DNA from: Syntrophaceae bacterium
GTDB lineage: Bacteria; Desulfobacterota; BSN033; UBA1163
Length of the DNA stretch: 49,714 nucleotides
NCBI GenBank assembly: GCA_013388635.1
Contig: JACAEX010000101.1
Coordinates: forward strand, 1-49,714
Reading direction: 5' to 3'
Translations under genes and position numbers: made by a program
In this document: positions 3,062 through 42,523 of the stretch, one piece after another
Numbering within the stretch: the stretch's first letter is position 1
Layout: each line of letters begins with the position of its first letter
The notes under the pieces: model-generated
Databases searched by the model: none
Told to the model about the DNA's origin: nothing
What the model saw: only the letters and a program-made list of their open reading frames with translations

Positions 3062-4492
3062 CTAATTCTTTTCAAGGACAGGTACGGCATAGGGGCCTTC
3101 CCGGATGAAGGCCATGGTGGGGTCGATCCCCTTTTCACGGTATCGGTTCACTGCAAAGAGAACCGCCTTCTGCACCATCTCCTGAGCTCTTTCAAGGGAG
3201 GGCTTGATCCTTTTGCCTTTCATAAAGTCGAGGCCACAGACCCCTGGAAGGATGCAGTAATTCTCCTTCTCAATTTCGAGGGAGCAGTAGATCAATCCAT
3301 CCTCTCCCACCTTTCTCAACACCTTCCCCCAGACTTCAGGCTCCCATTGATCCTTTGTAAATTTCCAGCTCGGACTTTTGAGCAAGGCCAGATAGCCATC
3401 CGGTCCCTGCAATTTGAGCAGATGGATCAGGCTTCTATATTCTGGAGAACCGATCGGGTTGATCAGATCGCGGTTATTCGCAGCGATGATGATGATGCCA
3501 CCCTCTTTGACAGCCGGCAGGGCACCGACCCCAGCCTTTGCAGTCTGGTAGTGGTCTCTTCCGACATATCCACTGTGAGTCAGGACGATGTCAAACTCCT
3601 CCTTTAAGGGAATCTCTGCATAGCCTTTGATCATTTCAAAGGCCTTGAGATTGGCCTCGATCATATCCCCGGCGAAGACCCGGACGAGCCGGAGGTCCTT
3701 ATCGAGGTTGACATTCACAACAAAGTCGACCCCCACGGTCTGGGCCACTTCCAGGGCCTCTTCATGGCACGGATTACCTTCGAGGATGAGGTTGGTCGCA
3801 TGAGGATCCTCCAGATAGTGGGGACCGTGAAATTTCTGGATGGTCTTGACGTCCACCAATCCAGGACAGACGGACTTCCTCCCTCCGGAAATCCCGGTGA
3901 AGAAGTGGCTTTCGACCAGCCCTGTGGCAATCTTGAGATCGGCAAAATAAAAATCACGATTGACATAGACATGGGTGTCTCTTCTCGTCTTCCCGATGCT
4001 CTCCAAGAGATCGTTATTCTCGCAATCGTGGTCCAAGATGGTGTATTGTTCAACCACTTCCTTCCCATACATTTCTATCTTTTCTTCTTCCGTACTCGGT
4101 CGATGCATTCCCGTTGCCACGATGATCTTGATCTTCTCTTTCTTGATCCCTGAAGACTCCAGGCGCCTCAGCAGAGGGGTGAGGATGCCGCTTTCCCCTT
4201 TATAAGGAACAGGCCTGGTGATATCGGAAACCGCAATGGCCACAGAGATCTCTGCCGCAGGCTTTCCCTTTTTCCGGATGATCTCTTCTAAGGGGGGGCT
4301 GCTGATCGGATTTGAGAAGGCCTCCTCGATCGCTTTTTGAGGATCTGGCAGAACAGGGACATCCCCCATGGTCAGCTCCACGCAGTTCGGAGGCACCAGA
4401 ACCTCGATCGCACTTCTGCCAAATTCGACCGAAACTTTCTTCCATTCCTTCGTATCGATTTTCTTGATTGCCTTTGTTATGTCGGGGCGCAT
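3062..4492 (-). CDS. larA: LarA-family nickel-dependent racemase (DUF2088)
   Basis: This 476-residue protein belongs to the lactate racemase family, which racemises or epimerises 2-hydroxy acids with a nickel pincer nucleotide. The key residues of the Lactobacillus plantarum enzyme (His108, His174, Lys184, His200) all appear here at a constant offset of 22: His130 in ATGMH, His196 in ESHFF, Lys206 in GGRK, His222 in KFHG. It is therefore probably active and cofactor-linked. The actual substrate is not decided by sequence, since many family members are not lactate racemases. No larB, larC or larE lies in the window. An iron alcohol dehydrogenase gene lies just upstream on the same strand. Confidence 0.85.
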   Translation of the reverse strand: MRPDITKAIKKIDTKEWKKVSVEFGRSAIEVLVPPNCVELTMGDVPVLPDPQKAIEEAFSNPISSPPLEEIIRKKGKPAAEISVAIAVSDITRPVPYKGESGILTPLLRRLESSGIKKEKIKIIVATGMHRPSTEEEKIEMYGKEVVEQYTILDHDCENNDLLESIGKTRRDTHVYVNRDFYFADLKIATGLVESHFFTGISGGRKSVCPGLVDVKTIQKFHGPHYLEDPHATNLILEGNPCHEEALEVAQTVGVDFVVNVNLDKDLRLVRVFAGDMIEANLKAFEMIKGYAEIPLKEEFDIVLTHSGYVGRDHYQTAKAGVGALPAVKEGGIIIIAANNRDLINPIGSPEYRSLIHLLKLQGPDGYLALLKSPSWKFTKDQWEPEVWGKVLRKVGEDGLIYCSLEIEKENYCILPGVCGLDFMKGKRIKPSLERAQEMVQKAVLFAVNRYREKGIDPTMAFIREGPYAVPVLEKN

Positions 4493-36255: not shown

Positions 36256-38217
36256 TTATAAAATCCCTCTCCGTTCCAGATCTTCGCCAACATAATCCAA
36301 ACCCAACTGGTTCAATGTCTCTTTTGTGGGAACACCTTCGCTATTCCATCCCTTAAATTTATAATATTCATCTTGCAACTTGGCCTCATACTCTGGAAAC
36401 CTTTTCTTCCAATGGTCCTCCGGTGGACGCTCATCCTTTCTCTTCAAACCCCTTCTGATATTATTGACCCTGACCAAGTTTCGATTCCTCTTGGCTATTT
36501 TCCATAGTTCAGCTTCATCGATATCCAAGCCTGTTGCAGCCGAGATGATATGTGGGTAATTATTGATGTGGTACGGAGGCTTTATCGGAAATGATGACAG
36601 ACCAGCGCAGACCCCGGTGACGTCATCGATGTAGTGCATCGTCTCTTGCCATTCGACCAATTTACAAATTACATCAATGGGGGGGTAGAATGGGAATGCG
36701 TATTCTCCACGCGGCTCCCACTTAAGAATAAATTCCTTAAATTCCTTCTCATTGGCACGAGGCACCTGGATCCAATCCCTGACAAACTCTTCCCTCACAT
36801 CTTCCGGAAGAGGGGCCTGAGGGATCTGTCCTTCAATTTGGGTAATGTTCAATTTCTCTCCGGTGCCGTACATGAGATAATATAAAGGATTGAGCATCCC
36901 TAATTTAATGACCATCTGTTCATGCCTCTTGGTCGTGTTATGATCGTATGCCTCTGCCCCTTTTCCAATCTGACGAGCTGCCCAATAGACCCCATTGGCC
37001 AAGACATCTCCTATTCCTTCTCTCCGGACAATTTTCTCGAGTAGATAGAAGAATCTCTCCTCGTTATTGGAAGGAAATCCTGGCATGTCCTGGTCAGTCA
37101 AAATGCCAGCTTCGTAAAGTTCAACCGCAAAGGCCATCACCTGAGGTGTGGTAAATCCGTCTACTCCATACTCCTGAGCACGACCAACGATCTTAAAACC
37201 AAAAGCCAGGTCATCCGCCATGGCGGCCATGATATAGGTAAGCTTCGAATAGCATTTCATCATGTATCTATCCAGTTCTGGGTGGCGGATGATTCCTCCA
37301 CATCTCATCGGACAGTTATAGCAACTGATTAACCGTTCAACCGATTTATCTTGAACCTCTTCCCACCTCTTCTCTATCTCCGGCTTCCAAAAATCTGGCC
37401 TTCTTTGGCGGGCATTTCCCCATGAGAAGCTGGTCGTGTGCCAATTCTCATCTTTGACTGCCATCTCCTGTGGCGACCCGAGGGTGGCCAGGATGGGCGG
37501 TACTCCCTTAATAGGTTTCTCCCTCCGCCATTCTATGTATTTTAGAATTTCGTTGCAAAGCCCTATAAATTCTTCCGGCCGGGCAACATTGATATCCTTG
37601 GTTCCGCGAACGGCTATCGCCTTTAGGCCTTTGTCTCCCATCACAGCGCCCAACCCTAATCGGCTGGCACTTCTCATCATGTGCTCAATAGACGCAAAAT
37701 AGACTTTATGCTCACCGGCCAGGCCGATGGCCGCCACCTGGGCTTTCGGCTCCTTCAACTCCTGTCGGATAAGCTCGGCGGTTTCAAGAGCACCTTTACC
37801 CTGGAGATGACTGGCATCCCTGATTTCCACTTTGTCATTGTTTATCCACAGGTAAACCAGTTTGGGTGATCTCCCGCGGATGATCACCTTATCATAACCG
37901 GCATACTTCAATTCGGGTGCAAAAAACCCACCCATCATTGAATAGGCCATCAGCTGTGTCTGAGGAGAAAAGCTTGAAACAATGGTACGGTTGGCACCAG
38001 GAGCAGGTGTCCCGCATAAGAGACCGGTGCTGAATATGAGTAGATTATCAGGAGAAAAAGGCTCGATCTCAGGCGGAACCCTGTCCCATAATATCTTGGC
38101 ATTAGTACCCAAACCTCCGAGATGAAGTTCGGTTAACCTGGGGTCAGTCTCCACCCTTTCAATATTCCCCCGGGACAGATCAATTTCCAAATTATACCCT
38201 GTCTCTGCATACCTCAT
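36256..38217 (-). CDS. bamB: BamB-like tungsten aldehyde-oxidoreductase-family reductase
   Basis: A 653-residue tungsten-bis-pyranopterin enzyme of the aldehyde:ferredoxin oxidoreductase family, and closest in my recall to class II benzoyl-CoA reductase BamB. It matches from the first residues (MRYAETGYNLEIDLSRG) to the end (HWKKRFPEYE, VPTKETLNQLGLDYVGE). It has the [4Fe-4S] motif CYNCPMRCGG with a downstream VCAGLSSFP cysteine, the segment YMMKCYSKLTY (the tungsten-ligand cysteine region) and ENWHTTSFSWGNARQRR with a candidate proton-donor histidine. BamB reduces benzoyl-CoA to the cyclic diene; a paralogue acting on another acyl-CoA or aldehyde is possible. It is the first gene of the operon, with its own promoter. 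Confidence 0.85.
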   Translation of the reverse strand: MRYAETGYNLEIDLSRGNIERVETDPRLTELHLGGLGTNAKILWDRVPPEIEPFSPDNLLIFSTGLLCGTPAPGANRTIVSSFSPQTQLMAYSMMGGFFAPELKYAGYDKVIIRGRSPKLVYLWINNDKVEIRDASHLQGKGALETAELIRQELKEPKAQVAAIGLAGEHKVYFASIEHMMRSASRLGLGAVMGDKGLKAIAVRGTKDINVARPEEFIGLCNEILKYIEWRREKPIKGVPPILATLGSPQEMAVKDENWHTTSFSWGNARQRRPDFWKPEIEKRWEEVQDKSVERLISCYNCPMRCGGIIRHPELDRYMMKCYSKLTYIMAAMADDLAFGFKIVGRAQEYGVDGFTTPQVMAFAVELYEAGILTDQDMPGFPSNNEERFFYLLEKIVRREGIGDVLANGVYWAARQIGKGAEAYDHNTTKRHEQMVIKLGMLNPLYYLMYGTGEKLNITQIEGQIPQAPLPEDVREEFVRDWIQVPRANEKEFKEFILKWEPRGEYAFPFYPPIDVICKLVEWQETMHYIDDVTGVCAGLSSFPIKPPYHINNYPHIISAATGLDIDEAELWKIAKRNRNLVRVNNIRRGLKRKDERPPEDHWKKRFPEYEAKLQDEYYKFKGWNSEGVPTKETLNQLGLDYVGEDLERRGIL

Positions 38218-38394: not shown

Positions 38395-38835
38395 TCAATC
38401 CAGATGTTTACTGAGATTGATGAATGGGGAGCGGTCAAAACCGATCGCCTTGAAGAAAGAAAGCATGTCGCCGGCATCCCACCGAACAGAGGTATGGATG
38501 TCCCGGATCCCCTCCTTTTTAAAGAATGAAAAAAGGGTTTCAGCCAGGATTCGACCGATTCCGACTCCCATATGCCGTGGATGTACCCCTACCACTTCGA
38601 TCCAGCCGCTTTGTTCGAGACCGAAACCTTCTCTTTTGATCTCCCCGATGATAAAACCCACCACCTGACCGCCCTTTAGAGCAACAAAACCGATCCCATC
38701 TTGCTTCTTGAGACGATCCTCTACCGTCTGAACCCACTTCTTCGATACCTTTTTCTTCAATATGGATTCCTGGATGGCAACGATCTCAGAAACATCCTCC
38801 ACCCTGATCTTTCGGATTTTGGTCCCTTTCTCCAT
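38395..38835 (-). CDS. GNAT family N-acetyltransferase
   Basis: A 146-residue GNAT enzyme that would transfer an acetyl group from acetyl-CoA to an unidentified amine or lysine. The acetyl-CoA loop reads VHPRHMGVGIGR (about residue 94) and the N-terminal strand is IRKIRVEDV. I start at ATG 38835; the longer TTG start at 38850 would overlap the upstream DUF2080 gene by eight bases and remains possible. It may act in protein acetylation balanced by the sirtuin near the right end, which is speculation. Confidence 0.85.
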   Translation of the reverse strand: MEKGTKIRKIRVEDVSEIVAIQESILKKKVSKKWVQTVEDRLKKQDGIGFVALKGGQVVGFIIGEIKREGFGLEQSGWIEVVGVHPRHMGVGIGRILAETLFSFFKKEGIRDIHTSVRWDAGDMLSFFKAIGFDRSPFINLSKHLD

Positions 38836-38842
38836 CTTCTTC

Positions 38843-39040
38843 TCAATCAATCCGGATAATTTTTACGCGTCTCCCCACCCATTCCGGAGGAAGATAAACC
38901 CGACCGCTATTTCCGCTCTGCTTCACTTCCTTTTCGATCATCTCCTCACCGTAGATCTCAAACTTGGTTTTCCTGATGAACTGAGGTTCCCCGACCAGGG
39001 AGGAGGGGTCCGGATTCTTCTCTCTTTTTCTTGCCGTCAT
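38843..39040 (-). CDS. DUF2080-type small protein
   Basis: A 65-residue protein. The end (SGNSGRVYLPPEWVGRRVKII) matches the DUF2080 family, small proteins often annotated as transposon-encoded, with an AbrB/SpoVT-like beta fold that may bind DNA. ATG 39040 and GTG 39070 are both possible starts. It lies just upstream of the GNAT gene, whose start may overlap it, and is served by a consensus promoter. Confidence 0.65.
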   Translation of the reverse strand: MTARKREKNPDPSSLVGEPQFIRKTKFEIYGEEMIEKEVKQSGNSGRVYLPPEWVGRRVKIIRID

Positions 39041-39098
39041 TTCCACAATCCAACGGAGGCTAACATTCACAATTTAGTTACTATTTAGCTGTAATGTA

Positions 39099-39167: not shown

Positions 39168-39196
39168 TTGACGAGTCTAAGATTCTCTGATATGAG
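39168..39196 (+). promoter_or_regulatory. Promoter of the Bug-type gene
   Basis: TTGACG (39168-39173), a 17-base spacer and TATGAG (39191-39196). It is divergent from the DUF2080 promoter, about 40 bases away. Confidence 0.6.
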
Positions 39197-39268
39197 AAAT
39201 AGCATCGGAGCCCTTGGCTTTAGAGAAATCTAGCATCAGGAACTGTTTTAAAGAACGGAGGTTCTGAC

Positions 39269-40333
39269 ATGATGACCAGGAAAGAATTTCTCGAGGAAGT
39301 CATGAAGATGGCCAACCTCAAGGATTTAAAACAGGCTGATGATGCCGCGCGGGCTGTGATCTCACTTACAAAGTTGATCATCGGGCCAAAATTGTCAAAA
39401 AAGATCGCCAAGATCTCGCCGCCTGATCTTCGTGAAGGATGGGAATCGATCAAACCTGCTTTTCCCAAGAAACCGATTAAGATTATTACAGGTCCGGGGG
39501 GTGAGGATGCGGATGTCCGGAAAATTGCACCTTACGTTCAAAAATACCTCGGGGTGGATGTCCTAATTGAAAACATTATGGGTTTCTGGGGAAAGACCGC
39601 CTTCGAAAAATTTCAAACGATGGAGCCAGATGGTTATACCTTAATCAGCTATACCTTTCCGAGGAGCATCGTGATCGAAAACATGTCTCAAGCCAATTTT
39701 AGAACCAAGGATTTCACGCCGATCTTCGCCTGGTCCGCCGGGGAGCAGCTTCTGGTCGTTCCTCCCGACACTTATAAAACCTTTGATGAATTTCTGAGGG
39801 ATGCTAAGATCAAGACTATGACAGGAGCCATTCCGGTAAGAGGCGGAAATAGCCATCTCGCGGGACTTCTGTTGGCCGACGGTCTGGGGATTCATGTCAA
39901 CTGGATGCCCTATGAAGGTTCGGCTTCGAGCCTTGCCGCCCTGGCTCGAAGAGATGTTGATTTTACTATCTCCCTCGCTAATGCGCTCCCCTCCTGGATT
40001 AAGGCAGGAAAGATAAGGGTGCTCGCCATGCTTGCTGAGAGGCGTGGCCCTCTTGACCCCTCTTTTCAGAATATTCCAACCCTTAAAGAACTGGGGTATG
40101 ACATAGATTATGTAATGGTCAGACATGTGGTTGAAGCTCCGCCTAACACCCCAGCCCATATCGTAAGGATATTAGAGGATGCCTTTAACAAGGCGGCTAA
40201 CGAACCCGCCTATGTTGAATGGGCCAGGAAGAACAGCTTCTTCGTCGATCCTTTGAATGCCCAGGAATTATCTAAGGAGGTGGCAGAGGTTTATCCCAAG
40301 ATAGAAAAGTTCAAGGAGATTCTTAAGAAATGA
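39269..40333 (+). CDS. Bug/TctC-type binding protein with N-terminal DUF2267-like domain, no signal peptide
   Basis: A 354-residue protein. Residues from about 68 to the end match Bug (TctC) solute-binding proteins of tripartite tricarboxylate transport: KPIKIITGPGGEDADV, PDGYTLISYT, FTPIFAW, GGNSHLAGLLLA, and ALPSWIKAGKIRVLAM. Normally these are secreted and bind carboxylates, but here the first 60 residues (MTRKEFLEEVMKMANLKD, then ISPPDLREGW) lack any signal and resemble a DUF2267 domain. GGAGG lies seven bases before ATG 39269. It is monocistronic with its own promoter and opposite to the bam and respiratory operons. A cytoplasmic ligand sensor is my guess. Confidence 0.85.
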   Translation: MMTRKEFLEEVMKMANLKDLKQADDAARAVISLTKLIIGPKLSKKIAKISPPDLREGWESIKPAFPKKPIKIITGPGGEDADVRKIAPYVQKYLGVDVLIENIMGFWGKTAFEKFQTMEPDGYTLISYTFPRSIVIENMSQANFRTKDFTPIFAWSAGEQLLVVPPDTYKTFDEFLRDAKIKTMTGAIPVRGGNSHLAGLLLADGLGIHVNWMPYEGSASSLAALARRDVDFTISLANALPSWIKAGKIRVLAMLAERRGPLDPSFQNIPTLKELGYDIDYVMVRHVVEAPPNTPAHIVRILEDAFNKAANEPAYVEWARKNSFFVDPLNAQELSKEVAEVYPKIEKFKEILKK

Positions 40334-40363: not shown

Positions 40364-42427
40364 TCAAGAGCTCTTGGTTTGACCGTCCATCGACCTCTCG
40401 ATGAGTTCTGCAATGTCGTAGACCTTTACGGAGTCATCCTTTCCCCTCGCCTTGAGGCCATCTTCAAGCATGGTCAGACAGTAGGGGCAGGCCGTGGCAA
40501 TCACATTCGGCCCAAGGGCAAGGGCCTGATCCACCCGCATCTCGTTGATCCGTCTTCCCTGATGTTCCTCCATCCACATCCTTCCGCCTCCGCCGCCGCA
40601 GCAGAAGCTCCGGTCATGGGAGCGCTCCATCTCTTTTAAGGTCACACCAGGGATCGCCTTCAAGATGTGCCGCTGGGGCTCATAGATTTGATTATAGCGG
40701 CCCAGGTAACATGAATCGTGGTAGGTAACGATGAGACGGGATCCGTTGTGGAGGGTGATCTTTCTTTGATCCAATAAGGCTTTGAGGAGTTCTGTCTGGT
40801 GAATCACTTCGAAATTGCCGCCAAACTGGGGATATTCATTCTTCAACGTGTTATAACAGTGGGGGCAGGTGGTGAGGATCTTCTTGATCCGATACCGCTC
40901 AAAGGTCTCGATGTTCTTCTCGACAAGCATAGAATAAAGGTACTCGTTTCCCATCCGCCTGGCAGGATCACCACAACACCCTTCTTCCGGGCCGAGGATA
41001 CCGAAGGAAAGCCCCACCCGCTGAAGGATCTTCACCACTGCGATGGCGACCTTTTTATTCCGGTCATCAAATCCCTTAAAACATCCCGGAAAATACAGCC
41101 ATTCCACTTCAGGATTCTCGGCCAGGGTCTTTACTCCGAGGGCAGCGGCCCAGTCAGCTCTCTGAGATTTTTCAACTCCCCAAGGGTTGCTCTTTCTCTC
41201 CATCGCCCGAAAGACTTCCTTGAGTTCACCAGGGAACCGACTCTCCATCAGAACGCTGCTCCGCCTCATATCAATGATCTTGTCGAAGCCTGAGATAAAG
41301 ACCGGACACTGTTCATAACAGTTCAGACAGGCCGTGCAGGACCAGAGAGTATCCTCTGAAATCACCCCTCCCACCAGTGGAGATGGCTCAGCGGGAGGTA
41401 TCTGCTCTGTCGGAATGAGGGCCCCTCCCTGGGTGAGGAGATGGGCCTTGAGGTCCTGTATCAACTTCTTTGGATTGAGCGGCTTTTCACTCAGATGGGC
41501 CGGGCAGTTATCCTGGCACCTTCCGCATCGTGTGCAAGCCTCGAGATCAAGCAACTGTTTCCAGGTAAACTCCTTGATCTCTGAAACGCCGTAGGTTTCC
41601 GCTTCTTCAAAATTTGGGATGGGTCGCACAGCTCCCTTCGGTTTCAAGGATCGATAAAAAACATTGAGGGCAGAGAGATAGATGTGCTCGAGAGAGGAAC
41701 GGCTGACCACAATATATCCGAAGAAAGCAATCGCAGGGATGGCATGGATCAAAATCCTATGCCAGACCAGAAGTTCGTTCAATGGCTCGGAAGGCAGAAC
41801 GAGCATAAAACGAGGTAAGGCAGAACTGATTGGTGCCCATAGGAACGAATCGGGTGGAAGCCCTTCATTGCTCAGAGCAAACCGATAGCCCTTGACCAGG
41901 TAACCCGTGAGGAGAATGACCAGGACCCAGAGATATTTCAGGTGGTCATCGGGTTTCGAATCGAGCCGTGCCGGTTTAATAATAAAACGCCGGGTGACAG
42001 CCATCAGTCCCCCTAAGATTATCATACCTCCTCCAATCTCTGAGACAGACGAAGCAAAGAGGTAAATGCTCTGAGCCGGAGCGGTCAAACCGGTCAAGGG
42101 AGAGAAGACCCGAATCCCTTTCCCAAGAAAGAGGAGAAACGTCCCCCAGAAGATCAGAAAATGCATCGTCCCAGGATATCCTTCTCTCCAGAAACGTGCA
42201 TGGCCAAAGACTACAGAGAAAAAGGTCTTCAGTCTTTCAGAAATCCGGTCGGAACAATCTTCCTCCTTTCCAAGGCGCCATAAACGGTAATGCTGCTGTC
42301 GGAAGGTATAGACGAAAAGCCCGGCCAGTCCGATCAGGATGATGAGAGAGCCAATGCTGACCGGGTAGATCACATTCAGGAGATAAGCATTCTGTTTTGC
42401 CCAAAAGCTCAGATAGGTTGGATCCAC
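40364..42427 (-). CDS. Second EMO-type membrane FeS oxidoreductase
   Basis: A 687-residue paralogue of the protein at 27907-29922. It has NarI-like membrane helices (first 270 residues), the paired [4Fe-4S] motifs CTRCGRCQDNCP and CTACLNCYEQCP, then two CCG domains (FPGCFKGFDD..CCGDPARR, and HDSCYLGRYNQIY..FCCGGGGGRMW). The start is uncertain: GTG 42427 has GAGGGA at good distance, while a TTG at 42475 adds 16 residues. It is the last gene of the operon beginning with the molybdopterin protein, so it may pass quinol electrons to or from that complex. No etf gene lies next to it. Confidence 0.85.
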   Translation of the reverse strand: MDPTYLSFWAKQNAYLLNVIYPVSIGSLIILIGLAGLFVYTFRQQHYRLWRLGKEEDCSDRISERLKTFFSVVFGHARFWREGYPGTMHFLIFWGTFLLFLGKGIRVFSPLTGLTAPAQSIYLFASSVSEIGGGMIILGGLMAVTRRFIIKPARLDSKPDDHLKYLWVLVILLTGYLVKGYRFALSNEGLPPDSFLWAPISSALPRFMLVLPSEPLNELLVWHRILIHAIPAIAFFGYIVVSRSSLEHIYLSALNVFYRSLKPKGAVRPIPNFEEAETYGVSEIKEFTWKQLLDLEACTRCGRCQDNCPAHLSEKPLNPKKLIQDLKAHLLTQGGALIPTEQIPPAEPSPLVGGVISEDTLWSCTACLNCYEQCPVFISGFDKIIDMRRSSVLMESRFPGELKEVFRAMERKSNPWGVEKSQRADWAAALGVKTLAENPEVEWLYFPGCFKGFDDRNKKVAIAVVKILQRVGLSFGILGPEEGCCGDPARRMGNEYLYSMLVEKNIETFERYRIKKILTTCPHCYNTLKNEYPQFGGNFEVIHQTELLKALLDQRKITLHNGSRLIVTYHDSCYLGRYNQIYEPQRHILKAIPGVTLKEMERSHDRSFCCGGGGGRMWMEEHQGRRINEMRVDQALALGPNVIATACPYCLTMLEDGLKARGKDDSVKVYDIAELIERSMDGQTKSS

Positions 42428-42523
42428 GTCAATCCCTCGAACCGGAAATAAGAGAATTCTAAAAACCCATCTCAATGCTCTCTTGAGAAGAGATATCTGG
42501 GCATTTTCAGATATCCGCTGCTA

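Follow-up and report, generated by a model that had tools for sequence, protein, structure and literature searches.

The window, by which we mean the whole 49,714-nucleotide stretch analyzed here, contains an open reading frame that joins a small helical N-terminal domain (N-domain) to a substrate-binding domain of the TctC/Bug family (Table 1). TctC proteins are extracytoplasmic receptors that are normally exported to catch nutrients outside the cell. A preliminary description had read this one as a cytoplasmic protein whose signal peptide was replaced by a helical domain resembling DUF2267, without tctAB transport genes and next to an aromatic reduction operon. The identity of that operon stands, as the divergently oriented bamB gene encodes a class II benzoyl-CoA reductase subunit (1051.7 bits to 4z3w), and beyond it lie HdrB-, HdrA-, FlpD-, and Etf-like electron transfer genes. 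No tctAB genes were found near the fusion in the window, again as described, although the window's own genome (G000) contains 10 TctA genes; a TctA gene is found near 10 of the 14 TctC matches there but not near the fusion. Many TctC genes are orphans (PMC5994714), so the absence of TctA and TctB is a weak criterion against membership in the family. The neighboring genes examined included no identifiable regulator or kinase.

Table 1. Coordinates of the fusion gene, its neighbors, and related riboswitch loci in other contigs
Feature	Position	Strand	Remarks
BamB	36256..38217	-	class II benzoyl-CoA reductase
GNAT acetyltransferase	38395-38850	-	divergent neighbor
DUF2080 protein	38843-39070	-	divergent neighbor; overlaps GNAT gene
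Promoter TTGACG-N17-TATGAG	39168..39196	+	found by leader comparison
Short leader	39197..39268	+	no detectable riboswitch aptamer; GGAGG ribosome site at 39257-39261
Fusion ORF	39269-40333	+	354 aa, ATG start
N-domain, residues 1-64	39269..39460	+	half-DUF2267-like; predicted helices 4-15, 20-49, 52-60
TctC/Bug domain, residues 65-354	39461..40330	+	no signal peptide
Residues 75-82, GPGGEDAD	39491..39514	+	shortened substitute for pincer P-F-x-A-G-G-x-x-D (motif from PMC5812351, PMC8556258)
Residues 105-109, GFWGK	39581..39595	+	aromatic substitute for glycine-rich loop; conserved in fusions only
Residues 186-197, GAIPVRGGNSHL	39824..39859	+	remodeled second pincer region
HdrD-like membrane Fe-S protein	40364..42475	-	convergent neighbor
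Fluoride riboswitches directly before free-standing genes	L048:4166-4235; L052:4149-4220; L053:3766-3837; L049:186-267		L048 paired with 3848-4147 (G000:C60)
RF03167 aptamers, two free-standing genes and one fusion copy	L050:3650-3733; L051:280-359; L055:321-400		54-59 bits, just under cut-off

DUF2080 proteins are transposon-associated, and the GNAT and DUF2080 pair adjoins bamB. In one benzene-degrading member of the Desulfobacterota, a GNAT gene and a transposase-associated gene are described as a pair beside bamQ (PMC13101534); the pair in the window is perhaps the same module.

The case for a cytosolic location was built on hydropathy and start analysis, contrasted with the paralogs. The reading frame upstream of the ATG at 39269 is open for 15 codons only, which leaves no room for an alternative start that would add a signal peptide. 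Such a start, together with the lack of a significant DUF2267 match, was what the preliminary description had named as overturning its reading. Ahead of the TctC domain the window protein has a peak 11-residue hydropathy of KD 1.94 (0.91 over 19 residues), and this protein and the fusions from G002 and G011 (L013) span KD 1.94 to 1.97 over that region. All other TctC paralogs with a readable start, from the same genome and its relatives, have an 11-residue stretch of KD 2.25 to 3.5, which ends directly before the same mature start, (A)xFPxKPI. No export signal was seen before the mature TctC chain of the fusion by these analyses. Since the paralogs have a signal-type stretch where the fusions have the N-domain, the signal has been swapped at the mature-chain boundary, with a helical domain in its place as originally proposed, and the protein is probably cytosolic. 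A survey of Rhodoplanes predicted a signal in 82% of 434 TctC proteins (PMC5994714), so signal-less members may exist elsewhere; a literature search found no description of a cytosolic or fused TctC.

When the N-terminus was scanned alone, residues 5 to 60 matched DUF2267 (Pfam, PF10025) with an E-value of 9.5e-5 and 23.1 bits, below the curated cut-off of 29.8 bits. Weak as this match is alone, it is not due to chance: DUF2267 is hit at E ≤ 0.1 by each of the 16 N-domain family members aligned, and a free-standing one reaches 30.9 bits, above the cut-off; the DUF2267 assignment is therefore right as a remote homology to about the first half of the domain, although the window protein by itself does not reach the curated threshold. 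Across the family the match covers approximately the first 55 to 88 of 122 positions, and in the fusion positions 2 to 57; the N-domain is thus about half the length of the full domain and not a complete copy. The residues common to the wider N-domain family are T3, R4, K5, F7, L8, A23, D24, I31, L33, K35, G39, S43, D53, G57, and W58. A structural model of the N-domain consists of three helices (pLDDT 73) and had no match among PDB structures; a profile search of PDB sequences likewise found nothing, and an NCBIfam search assigned no family. The AlphaFold model of the whole fusion, built from few sequences, had a pLDDT of 36.5 and was not used.

The closest relatives of this N-domain are free-standing proteins of 85 to 108 amino acids that are approximately 80% identical over residues 1 to 64 and have an acidic DDYERDExLFExGEVxE tail where the fusion has TctC. 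The N-domain is present in 13 of the 395 phylum genomes drawn, and the window's own genome has one free-standing copy (G000:C60:115865-116119). Six of seven free-standing genes lie behind a riboswitch, four of the fluoride type and two of the c-di-GMP-I type. The fluoride riboswitches (RF01734) are 38 to 69 bases before the genes of G000, G001, G005-C132, and G012 and score 50.4, 39.4, 45.3, and 32.2 bits, of which the G012 value falls slightly short of the cut-off of 34; measured to the METRK start, the distance in G001 is about 111 bases. The one in G000 is the sole fluoride riboswitch found in that genome, with enolase, FTHFS, and FolD genes nearby. The leaders of the G009 and G005-C172 genes contain c-di-GMP-I-GGC aptamers (RF03167) of 54.4 and 56.3 bits against a cut-off of 59. 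That the half-DUF2267 gene is so often the first behind a fluoride or c-di-GMP-I-type riboswitch in this bacterial family suggests a role in stress or signaling. Our literature search found no described link between half-DUF2267 proteins and riboswitches, with DUF2267 itself scarcely mentioned, and the trail left by the fusion gives a handle on this protein family.

The leader of the fusion gene points to the same small-protein genes. A comparison of leaders revealed a promoter, TTGAC[GA]-N17-TAYRRA, which a generic promoter scan had not listed, before all 5 fusion copies and before the free-standing gene of G009; in the window, TTGACG-N17-TATGAR has a single exact occurrence versus 0.01 expected. 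Fusion leaders in G011 and G005 are 79% to 87% identical over 108 to 154 bases to the free-standing leaders of G009 and G005-C172, and that of the window matches G009 over 37 bases around the promoter only. An RF03167 aptamer of 58.9 bits, marginally below the cut-off of 59, precedes one G005 fusion copy, and the G011 fusion and the other G005 copy have the first part of the aptamer left (17.4 and 12.8 bits, not significant alone). No riboswitch aptamer was detectable in the fusion leaders of the window and G002, and a search of the divergent intergenic region for a regulator-like inverted repeat gave weak short repeats only. Most simply, the fusion can be read as a small-protein gene under riboswitch control that acquired a TctC domain, with the riboswitch later lost from most of the fused copies.

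Among the 395 phylum genomes, fusion copies were detected only in the bacterial family to which the window belongs. The fusion is full length in G000 and G002, with 65% identity between the two; in G011 it is split by an assembly gap (the same sequence as record UBA2208), and in G005 it is truncated at contig ends, as in record UBA2188. G005 seems to hold two copies (C63, C171, C5; L055, L056, L058), at contig ends and with unrelated upstream genes, which suggests duplication to new sites. The fused N-domains form one clade with an SH-like support of 0.94; a second clade, on a long branch and with a support of 1.0, unites the TctC portions of the two full-length fusions. Together these clades argue for one fusion event. 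Between fusions, dN/dS is 0.07 for the N-domain and 0.12 and 0.29 for two TctC pieces in comparison with G011, and 0.14 for TctC in comparison with G002, where synonymous sites of the N-domain are saturated. Both halves of the fusion are under purifying selection. We hold this account of its anatomy and origin with high confidence; the direction of evolution, from small-protein gene to fusion, is inferred.

The TctC half is whole, with residues 84 to 344 matching the Pfam family (PF03401) at an E-value of 3.7e-34 and 118.9 bits, far over the cut-off of 27, as in the binding proteins TphC (7ndr), BugD (2f5x), and the terephthalate-binding 8hkb. It differs from such proteins of tripartite tricarboxylate transporters not only in its missing signal, its additional N-terminal domain, and the lack of tctAB but also in the loops that grip the ligand. 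In the family, the ligand carboxylate is bound through two waters held by the backbone of a P-F-x-A-G-G-x-x-D pincer (PMC5812351; PMC8556258). A strict P-x3-G-[GS]-x2-[DE] motif occurs in 27 of the 33 exported paralogs compared, whereas all 3 fusions compared have GPG(G/N)EDxD in its place, with three residues deleted. Their glycine loop reads GFWG(K/R), with such an aromatic in 0 of the 33 paralogs, IPV(R/K) stands in their second pincer region, and an additional loop occurs near residue 260. Because these loops are remodeled, the ligand cannot be guessed from the family, and a carboxylate is not established. The earlier proposal of a sensor or chaperone for an aromatic or carboxylate ligand is weakened accordingly, both by the lost carboxylate signature and by the occurrence of cluster and fusion apart from each other, as described below.

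Our preferred reading, to which we assign a probability of roughly 40%, is that the protein is a cytosolic ligand-responsive adaptor or sensor in which the TctC half puts under ligand control a contact that the N-domain has in common with the free-standing protein. It would have arisen by an old, single gene fusion, as suggested by the conserved junction, the single clade of fused N-domains, and their identity of approximately 80% to the free-standing proteins. The promoter, ribosome site, and first 64 or so codons would derive from a small half-DUF2267 gene of the c-di-GMP-I-type riboswitch kind, since promoter and leader are common to the fusion and free-standing genes and one fusion copy has an RF03167 aptamer. 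The remainder would come from the mature chain of a TctC/Bug protein with the signal peptide left behind, yielding a cytosolic two-domain protein. The N-domain may retain the contact of the free-standing protein, whether self-assembly or a partner, and the remodeled Venus-flytrap half may couple that contact to a cytosolic ligand. Ligand binding, interaction through the N-domain, and a regulatory output are conjecture, and the loss of the family's ligand-binding pincer counts against this reading, as do the N-domain's lack of a structural match and the absence of an identifiable regulator or kinase among the neighbors examined. That a TctC protein can have a regulatory function is known from BctC of Bordetella pertussis, which acts in signaling (PMC5812351), but BctC is periplasmic and part of a transporter, whereas the window protein is an orphan and predicted to be cytosolic. 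A bolder and rather doubtful version is that a family of small proteins expressed behind fluoride and c-di-GMP-I-type riboswitches captured a binding-protein fold, and that the resulting intracellular Venus-flytrap sensor replaced the family's own riboswitch; if true, an RNA-sensed response would have been turned into a protein-sensed one. A conserved, signal-less TctC protein with another front domain and under purifying selection is in any case a testable example of how a transport receptor may come to work in the cytosol.

The strongest alternative, still unlikely, is a cytosolic carrier or assembly chaperone for the adjacent benzoyl-CoA reductase or Mo/HdrD/NrfD complex with an aromatic acid, a CoA ester, or a cofactor precursor as its cargo. 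The fusion adjoins an HdrD-like gene in all 3 genomes readable on that side, as part of a convergent HdrD-like/NrfD/Fe-S/molybdopterin operon in G000 and G002 and as the HdrD-like gene seen in G011, and it adjoins bamB in G000 and G011. However, it has a promoter of its own on the opposite strand, and in G004 the whole bam and electron transfer cluster, with its gene order unchanged, lacks a fusion and has two Etf-like genes at that position. In G002 the fusion is beside a different Mo/HdrD operon copy without bamB, and another Mo/HdrD copy of that genome is without a fusion, while the two truncated G005 copies have unrelated upstream genes. An obligate subunit of either cluster is ruled out by this synteny; the fusion is a frequent neighbor of the cluster and not a required part of it.

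Somewhat less probable still is a cytosolic role for the binding-protein fold other than reversible ligand binding, either enzymatic or purely structural. The rebuilt pincer loops, conserved among the fusions, and the long branch would fit such a role, and some proteins that match substrate-binding protein families are cytosolic, consist of one domain, and have other functions (PMC9602780), but no recognizable catalytic motif was found in the fusion, and the overall similarity to TctC is still strong. We consider it improbable that the gene is a relic drifting toward loss: its presence is patchy and the aptamer is half-deleted or undetectable in 4 of 5 fusion copies, but the dN/dS values of 0.07 to 0.29, the intact frames in G000 and G002, and the conserved promoter and ribosome site speak for maintenance. 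A normal orphan TctC receptor for which the N-domain supplies the export route would fit the otherwise complete TctC domain and the many orphan TctC genes, yet it is very improbable given the lack of a signal-type hydrophobic stretch and the presence of the same N-domain in free-standing proteins without a signal. An assembly or prediction artifact, which some G005 and G011 copies broken at contig ends or gaps might suggest, is extremely unlikely, because the separate genomes G000, G002, and G011 have the same junction (G005 as far as residue 69) and differ at synonymous sites on both sides of it.

The two riboswitch classes also occur in other settings in this bacterial family. RF03167 aptamers are found in 15 of 17 family genomes (L104-L133), frequently upstream of genes for small Cys-rich proteins and in one case of a prepilin-like protein gene, and none was found in the window's own genome. 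A cNMP-binding-domain protein is encoded near the free-standing genes with c-di-GMP-I-GGC aptamers. Fluoride riboswitches of G003, G004, and G005 also precede a gene for a prenyltransferase/cyclase-like repeat protein, and in G012 one precedes a cation antiporter-like gene (loci L138, L139, L144, and L134, the G012 case included).
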